In this document: positions 40,981 to 43,900 of the stretch, piece by piece
How positions within the stretch are numbered: position 1 is the stretch's first letter
How the letters are laid out: each line of letters opens with the position of its first letter
Assembly: GCF_964204645.1 (NCBI RefSeq)
Contig: NC_134026.1
Span: 1,054,001-1,118,000 of the forward strand
Direction: 5' to 3'
From: Tubulanus polymorphus
Lineage: Eukaryota; Nemertea; Palaeonemertea; Tubulaniformes; Tubulanidae
Length of the DNA stretch: 64,000 nucleotides
The notes under the pieces: generated by a model
What the model saw: the letters and a program-made list of their open reading frames with translations, nothing else
Told to the model about the DNA's origin: nothing
Databases searched by the model: none
Program-made: the position numbers and the translations under genes

Positions 40981-43900
40981 ATGCAGGACCAAAACCTCGT
41001 CAAGAATTTGATCGCTCTGAAAAAACGATCACTCGACATCAAATTCAACCTCCAGGAGACGGACTACATTCCGGTAGAGAACATCGGAGCGGGCGCGTAC
41101 GGCGTTGTATGTTCGGCCATTCATAAACGCACGAAAAAGAAAGTTGCCATAAAAAAGATACCGAATGTTTTCGACGTGGAAATAACGGCGAAACGGACCT
41201 ACCGCGAAATAAAAATACTCAAACATTTCAAACACGATAACGTGATATCAATCGAAGAGATTCTGAAACCGCCGGGCTCGATGATCGAGTTTAAAGATAT
41301 CTACGTCGTGTTAGATTTGATGGAAAGCGATTTACACAGAATTATTCACTCGACTCAACCTTTAACACAAGAACACACGAGATTCTTCCTTTATCAGATA
41401 TTACGTGGTTTAAAGTATATACACTCGGCCAGTGTCATACATAGAGACTTAAAACCTAGTAACTTACTCGTCAATGAGAATTGTGATTTGAAAATTGGTG
41501 ATTTTGGTGAGTTGCCTTCAACAGTTGAATTCAATCTGGGAATCCCTTAGAATAATTATGTGGAAAAAAAAGATAATTCCAGGGGAAGCAAATTCTCAAA
41601 AGTTGGTTAAAGATAACCGGTGGCTGAATACCGAAGTAACTATGAATTTTTGTCACTTTGTCAGCTATTCGCTGTTTAACTCTGACCAACTTTTCAGTAA
41701 CTGCAGCCCCGGTATTTTTGTTGTCAAAAGAAAAAATGAAAAATGCCAATTGTTAAATTGTGAAAATTCCAGAGTTCATCATTCAATCTAACCCCGGCCT
41801 GGTGTAGATATTTGTGTTGTAAATATCTGAAGTTGAATATTTCAGGAATGGCCCGAGGAGCTGTAAACTCACAGGATGAATGTATGATGAGTATGACTCA
41901 ATACGTCGCTACTCGCTGGTATCGAGCTCCTGAATTAATCATGTCATTCGTCGACTACACGACTGCCGTCGATGTCTGGTCTGTTGGATGTATATTCGCT
42001 GAAATGATCAACAGAAAGACATTATTTCCAGGTGAATAGAAACGCTTGTCTCTTTCCTATGATGTTACACGGAAAGCTCCGGATTCATAATAAATGTTTC
42101 GTTGTAGTAATATTTATTGAAAAGTTTCAGACTCTTTGTATTCTTAGTGTAGGATTTCATAATATATTTATTACATGGTCAGTGTTTCATCAATGGTTAA
42201 TATAAAGCTCCAGAATATCAGGCAATACGGTCAATGTATTCGTGTATGAAATTTAGAGAAATCACTCTGTGATCGGAGAACTCCACGATTGAATCCCTTA
42301 GAATTCGCTCAAATGAAATTGGGACGGGACTTTTAACTGTTGCAACTGAACTTTTATCCCACTTGATGTCTTCTTCGTTAGAACCGTTTGCATCCTAGTT
42401 GGCACTTGGGTCTTCGGTTAGGTTTCTCCAGGCTTACTCACTTATTGTTCCAGTTCTCTGACCATGGAATGTCTCCAGGTTTCTTTTTGGACCCACTTCA
42501 TGTATTTTCATTTTGTATTATAGGTCGTAATGGAATATTACAGTTACAACTGATAATCAGTACATTAGGTACACCTTCCGAAGAAGTGATGGAACAATCT
42601 CGCTCTGATATCGTTAAGGGTATCATCCAAAGTAAGATAATTCATAACTTGTTCTTTTAACTTTTGAACAACTCGGCCAATTTGAGTCGGATGTCGGTGA
42701 ATATTCAATTTATAAGATCTGGCTTAGAGGGAGATTTAAATAGGAAAATGAATTGGAAAATTCCACACCTAGAAATTACTTCCGAGGAATCCAATATTCT
42801 GAGTAACAACGATCTGAGGATTCATGTTAGTTTTACTGTATACGTGAAACTAATGAAAGATGTTATGTTTTTTAAACAGGTATGGGTGAAAAAACTGCTG
42901 TTCCGTTAGAAACAATTTTACCATCGGCTTCAAAGAAAATGATTGATTTATTGAGTAAAATGTTGATATTGGATCCTCGTAAACGAATCACTGTCGACGA
43001 AGCATTGAGACATCCGTTCTTATCGAAATATCACGATCCAGATGATGAACCGACCTGTGCTCCGTTCGATTTCAGCTTTGAGAATAAGGTTAGTCTCAAA
43101 TTTTTTTTCATTTTTTTTCTTTAGCACCCTCAACCCGCTAAGTGCCACACAGGGCATTATAAATGGGTTCGATGTTCCTTTTTCCCAATGGGGGAGAGAC
43201 CAGAGAAGAACCTTCAACCAAGAAACTCCGTCGCCACCAGGGTCTGAGCCCATAAACCTTGGATTGACGAGACCAGTGACCGGCGGCTTAAACCTCTCGG
43301 CCACTGCGCCTCTCTTAGATGTCTTAGTCTCAGATATGAAGAGTAAGACAGTTTTTAGTTCAAAGTTGTAATGCACAGGGCCCCTATGACTCCTTGATTC
43401 CTTAAAAACTCTTTCTAAATGGATAATGCTTTTGAAGGTGAAAGTTGATTTGAGCAAAACACCTTTAGAATTCCTTCAATTTGAGAAAAAGGCAATTAGA
43501 TATTTTAGAAGTTTTACCGAAGACTATGTCTAATTCGGCACAGCAGGATCTTTTTGTTACCCTATTAGGCGCAGTTACCGAATTAATGGTCGACTATAAT
43601 TGGGATAAAAGTGATGCAGACACTTCTTCGAAATTTCAAATGTCTTCCTTTAAAACCTCTTATATCCAGGAATGACTGATCGCTAGGGTCTTAAATGTAG
43701 CTGTGATGTAATTTGAAAAAGTTTGGGTTACCGGTAGCCATGTCTGCGTACAGCGAGGTTTACGGTACATCAGTCTCTACTGTCATTGCTTTAACGAGTT
43801 CAAACACGTTTTCATTTTCTGTTGTAGCCTATGGATATGATTCAGTTGCGGCAGTTTATATTCAAAGAAATTCTCGATCTCGGTGACGACGTTCGTAAAT

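Follow-up and report, generated by a model that had tools for sequence, protein, structure and literature searches.

The activation loop of ERK5 usually carries the motif T-E-Y, which is common to ERK1/2. An ERK5-like gene of Tubulanus polymorphus (contig NC_134026.1) carries T-Q-Y at this place, which raises the question of whether the gene is a genuine ERK5, whether the glutamine belongs to the species, and what it would do to the activation of the kinase. The window analysed is the whole stretch of 64,000 nucleotides from positions 1,054,001 to 1,118,000 of the forward strand of this contig, and positions are those of the window unless another contig is named. The bases at 41896..41904 on the plus strand, ACT CAA TAC (ACTCAATAC), read from the DNA as T193-Q194-Y195 in exon 2 of the gene.

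Gene models were derived from all 16 combinations of the GT and AG sites close to the apparent exon boundaries (12 of the 16 listed); only one stays open, the runner-up stopping at 597. The retained model lies on the plus strand and comprises eight exons separated by seven introns that all have GT-AG ends. One frame is open throughout for 974 amino acids, corresponding to 2925 coding bases without break, stop included; the last base of the stop codon is 46510. Exon 1 (40981..41506) encodes the start Met, the glycine loop, Lys58, HRD and the start of DFG, and matches human MAPK7 chains; exon 2 (41846..42031) encodes the activation segment; exon 3 (42524..42631) is placed by the gene model and by the alignment to human ERK5; and exon 4 (42880..43088) encodes the last part of the kinase domain and, at residue 324, the common-docking segment YHDPDDEP. 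The long C-terminal extension begins in exon 5 (43828..44452) and continues with a strongly basic, putatively nuclear-localisation-like stretch in exon 6 (44718..44843), a long low-complexity tail including a DRNLLERW segment in exon 7 (44943..45945), and a SASLLADW segment in exon 8 (46369..46510), which also holds the stop codon. At E up to 0.001, Pfam searches returned a protein kinase domain (residues 32-321) and a second kinase model that overlaps it, and nothing else. The tail that follows the kinase domain has about 650 residues with the basic stretch and presumably resembles that of human ERK5. Lys58 (in VAIKK), HRD at 154 and DFG at 174 are present, as are the arginines in RTYREIK, HRD, DFGMAR and VATRWYR, which we take to have the same phosphate-holding role as in ERK2.

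Several other features lie in or near the gene. Intron 4 contains an interspersed repeat (43165-43330) with at least 39 near-full-length further copies in the genome at 91-94% identity, plus one partial copy, from 40 of 446 candidates scored. Read on the minus strand, the repeat seems to resemble a tRNA and is perhaps a SINE; ARAGORN called no tRNA in the 64-kb window, this repeat included. Upstream of the gene, an imperfect palindrome of 122 bases (39573-39694) has arms of 42 nt that are 83% complementary, and occurs in many copies in the genome (at least 78 match rows, many of which represent the same place on both strands, from 40 of 177 candidates scored); it resembles a small mobile element of the palindromic kind. 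It lies beside a ribosomal protein gene on the minus strand (about 38240-39486, with a frame at 39163-39486), which we presume to be that of eL6. Farther upstream, positions 35756-36673 hold an open frame of 305 amino acids, by our assumption a carbohydrate sulfotransferase.

The identity of the kinase was assessed by matching the first 238 residues of the model to solved structures. Among the best 60 of 2718 matches, the top 11 are all human MAPK7, with 324 to 341 bits, followed by the next MAP kinase at 283. Of the 232 aligned kinase positions, 156 are identical to human ERK5, and a 408-residue piece of the model aligns with human ERK5 with 471 bits over residues 7-389, a range that covers the docking segment, KYHDPDDEP, identical in the human protein. 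Like human ERK5 (4ic7, 4b99), the protein combines a kinase domain and the docking segment with a long C-terminal extension that includes a basic stretch. The two differ in the motif, T-E-Y at the matching place in the three human ERK5 chains aligned (4b99, 4ic7, 5o7i) and T-Q-Y in Tubulanus polymorphus, from whose ERK5 the usual motif is absent. As judged from these comparisons, the gene encodes a genuine ERK5 (MAPK7). It is single-copy in the assembly and apparently intact; T-E-Y, in our view, is not the feature that delimits the ERK5 family. The preliminary description of this DNA had named the gene as ERK5, had read its motif as T-Q-Y instead of T-E-Y, and had stated that Lys58, HRD and DFG were intact, and the alignments, the translation of the nine bases and the 974-residue model agree with it on all three points.

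The difference in the motif is confined to the middle residue, where the charge changes but the size hardly does; Thr and Tyr are kept two residues apart (T193 and Y195), so that the dual-phosphorylation scaffold is present. The replacement of Glu by Gln probably arose by a single G-to-C change. A second copy or an alternative exon that would restore T-E-Y was considered and rejected, none being present in the window or the assembly searched: with up to two mismatches allowed, the 64-kb window has a single occurrence of the segment that starts at the Tyr (none in 100 shuffles), and exon 2 has a single copy in the 268-Mb assembly. RNA editing that restores Glu, named in the preliminary description as a possible refutation, is unlikely because neither A-to-I nor C-to-U editing, the known kinds, can make a Glu codon out of CAA.

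The motif of ERK5 was then compared with those of the other MAP kinases read in the same genome, whose classes were named from the usual motifs and neighbouring residues, and besides which others may exist. ERK1/2 has TEY (locus L043), p38 TGY (L044), NLK TQE (L049), JNK TPY (L059) and a MAPK15-like kinase TEY (L060), so that the motif is the usual one for its class in five of five, and ERK5 alone departs among those read. Loops of other kinase classes read alongside these have TDY or are of the CDK type. Separately, two tandem stretches about 600 bases apart (L062:379 and L062:985; G000:C2 near 26667400-26668100) each encode a kinase loop DFGLARE..RSRPPYTDYVSTRW; a MAK/ICK-like kinase may use the two as mutually exclusive exons. 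An explanation by base errors across the MAP kinase genes in general was considered, and is made unlikely by the five usual motifs. A more local form of this explanation is that the species normally has GAA, and thus T-E-Y, the base read here being wrong or polymorphic. CAA and GAA are one base apart and only one copy of the exon exists in the assembly, both of which are compatible with an error or an allelic variant; however, the unbroken 2925 coding bases together with the usual motifs of the five other kinases indicate that local quality is good, and a substitution error would need to have struck exactly that base. We consider an error or variant to be quite unlikely.

Whether the kinase can still be activated in the usual way depends on its upstream partner. 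One study reports that protostomes had been regarded as having lost the MEK5/ERK5 pathway, and that it was then found in an oyster. In the present genome, a MEK5-like gene was found on G000:C5 near 17750-18636, with 77% identity over 48 residues (115-162 of the query); the best row counts one stop codon, at the intron edge before the exon where the frame opens. This MEK5 is known as ordered segments with introns partly read through (locus L027), which comprise a PB1-like N-terminus, KRNIHGLKV, and kinase segments through HPFIVKHDDGN, the kinase segments found being open within exons. The counterpart of KRNIHGLKV in human MEK5, as crystallised in complex with ERK5 (4ic7), is ERNIHGLKV. As read from these segments, a MEK5 gene with an ERK5-docking segment is present in the genome, as human ERK5 likewise has its MEK5. 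Loss of MEK5 had been considered, a first query having matched the genome only weakly (at best 49% over 37 residues). It was rejected when the gene was found with another query and further exons followed. When the genome was searched for the Pfam PB1 domain, both matches obtained lay on other contigs and MEK5 was not flagged, presumably as the domain is split over exons. The genome also has a separate MEK1/2-like gene (L028) and a MEKK2/3-like kinase, with 58% identity over query residues 129-227 in a row with three stop codons taken as intron read-through, and 63-72% in three neighbouring rows with none or one stop codon.

One feature of this MEK5 is unusual. Its helix-F segment reads HSEVWSLG, with the Glu codon GAA at about position 18586 of G000:C5 (L027:5587), where we take human MEK5 to have HSDVWSLG; to our knowledge, the Asp of this helix is nearly invariant in kinases. 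The MEK5 segments are located amid simple repeats, about 16-20 kb into contig C5. Both points, added to the changed motif residue of ERK5, are in line with a decay of the gene or of the whole MEK5-ERK5 module, in which the motif would have drifted through disuse. Such decay is nevertheless hardly credible, given that the 974 codons contain neither stop nor frameshift, that the catalytic residues, the docking segment and the long C-terminal extension of ERK5 are kept, and that no stop interrupts, within their exons, the kinase segments found for MEK5.

Glutamine at the middle position has precedents in other MAP kinases. NLK has T-Q at the same place as the ERK5 described here, and differs from it in having Glu where ERK5 has Tyr; NLK is activated in a different mode, with this Glu replacing the Tyr. 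Among animal MAP kinases, C. elegans PMK-3, which is of the p38 class and not an ERK5, is taken to have a TQY motif, for which no confirmation was found in the literature searched. In the table of a Leishmania review, MPK4 and MPK12 carry TQY, the trypanosome counterparts in the same rows having TDY, TEY, TSY or THY (the MPK4 row reads TQY/TQY/TDY/TEY). MPK4 is thus like the present ERK5 in its T-Q-Y, although it is not an ERK5 and its trypanosome counterparts in that row have TDY and TEY. MPK4 of L. mexicana is reported to be phosphorylated at T190 and Y192 by its own MAPKK, MKK5, and the title cited adds that it is activated. In further sources, one Brassica rapa MAPK is reported to carry TQY; a fungal survey found TQY in one of 173 species, Umbelopsis, its authors also placing the motif in animals; one paper describes nematodes and legumes as having TQY; and another source attributes it to plant MAP kinases. 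An ERK5 with TQY was not found in the literature searched, which lies largely outside the subscription journals; two papers name both ERK5 and TQY, and neither assigns the motif to ERK5 in the passages concerned. Gln at the middle of the ERK5 motif may be common in some animal group.

Relatives of the ERK5 query were also searched in viral contigs, where none was found, and in bacterial-labelled contigs, where nine related loci were found, none of them an animal ERK5. These nine are probably in good part eukaryotic contaminants. In the assembly itself, a search for COX1 gave no match. The loops were read in four of the nine loci: L035 has TDY, L036 a loop other than TXY, and in both L034 and L038 the middle position is a stop codon. 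When TAA is read as Gln (the ciliate code, chosen by the analyst), L034 becomes TQY and L038 becomes TQE. Both are MAP-kinase-like genes with an in-frame TAA where relatives have a residue (L034:3004, DYPS01000083.1; L038:603, JAGORW010000076.1), and are probably ciliate-like contaminants in bacterial assemblies.

Taken together, we consider that Tubulanus polymorphus most likely has a conservative E-to-Q change inside a working MEK5-ERK5 module. The kinase would be a working ERK5 that is still switched on by MEK5, the Gln having at most a quantitative effect; to this reading, in which phosphorylation, activity and size of effect are what we infer, we assign a probability of roughly 0.7. ERK5 is expected to remain MEK5-activated because T193, Y195, the conserved arginines and a MEK5 with its docking segment are all kept, and because the middle residue varies elsewhere. 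MEK5 of the same genome would dock on ERK5 and phosphorylate T193 and Y195, and the arginines would then hold both phosphates, thereby switching the kinase on. The middle of the motif would be a tolerated position, at which Gln may affect rates, basal activity or substrate choice, at most quantitatively.

A stronger version of such an effect is that the Gln changes regulation meaningfully and is kept by selection, through a weaker dependence on MEK5, an altered basal autophosphorylation or an altered choice of substrates. The title of Jiang 1997, according to which loop 12 of p38 influences substrate specificity and autophosphorylation, is in line with this, as are the helix-F Glu in MEK5 of the same genome and the usual motifs of the five other MAP kinases, which make the change specific to ERK5 among those read. 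On the other hand, MEK5 and the docking segment are kept, Gln is nearly of the size of Glu, and TQY exists in other MAP kinases, one of them reported, in the title cited, as activated by its MAPKK; a meaningful change under selection therefore appears unlikely, if worth keeping in view. The same evidence bears on two earlier suggestions. That the kinase is probably active is held to be right, as predicted from its intact catalytic residues. That the substitution could alter MEK specificity or basal activity is retained in part: altered specificity is less supported, in view of the MEK5 with its docking segment and of the Leishmania TQY kinase reported as activated by its own MAPKK, and the Jiang 1997 title leaves room for altered basal activity.

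Two counterpoints apply to the preferred reading of a conservative change in a working module. The human protein, our sole reference, has retained Glu despite a very long divergence, a point in favour of some value for this residue; and, with the helix-F Glu of its MEK5, the whole module may not be ordinary. It is conceivable, as a long shot, that MEK5 and ERK5 were retuned as a pair, ERK5 losing the acidic residue of its switch and the one MEK5 found changing its helix-F Asp to Glu, and that a shift in basal activity or in upstream dependence became fixed across a clade.

The TQY of this ERK5 is a modest variant and not a new mechanism. If real, it means that, in nature, the ERK5 switch can do without its acidic middle residue, and it provides a natural test of the role of that residue. 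An ERK5 of the TQY kind could escape phospho-TEY antibodies, and also gene annotation that relies on the motif.
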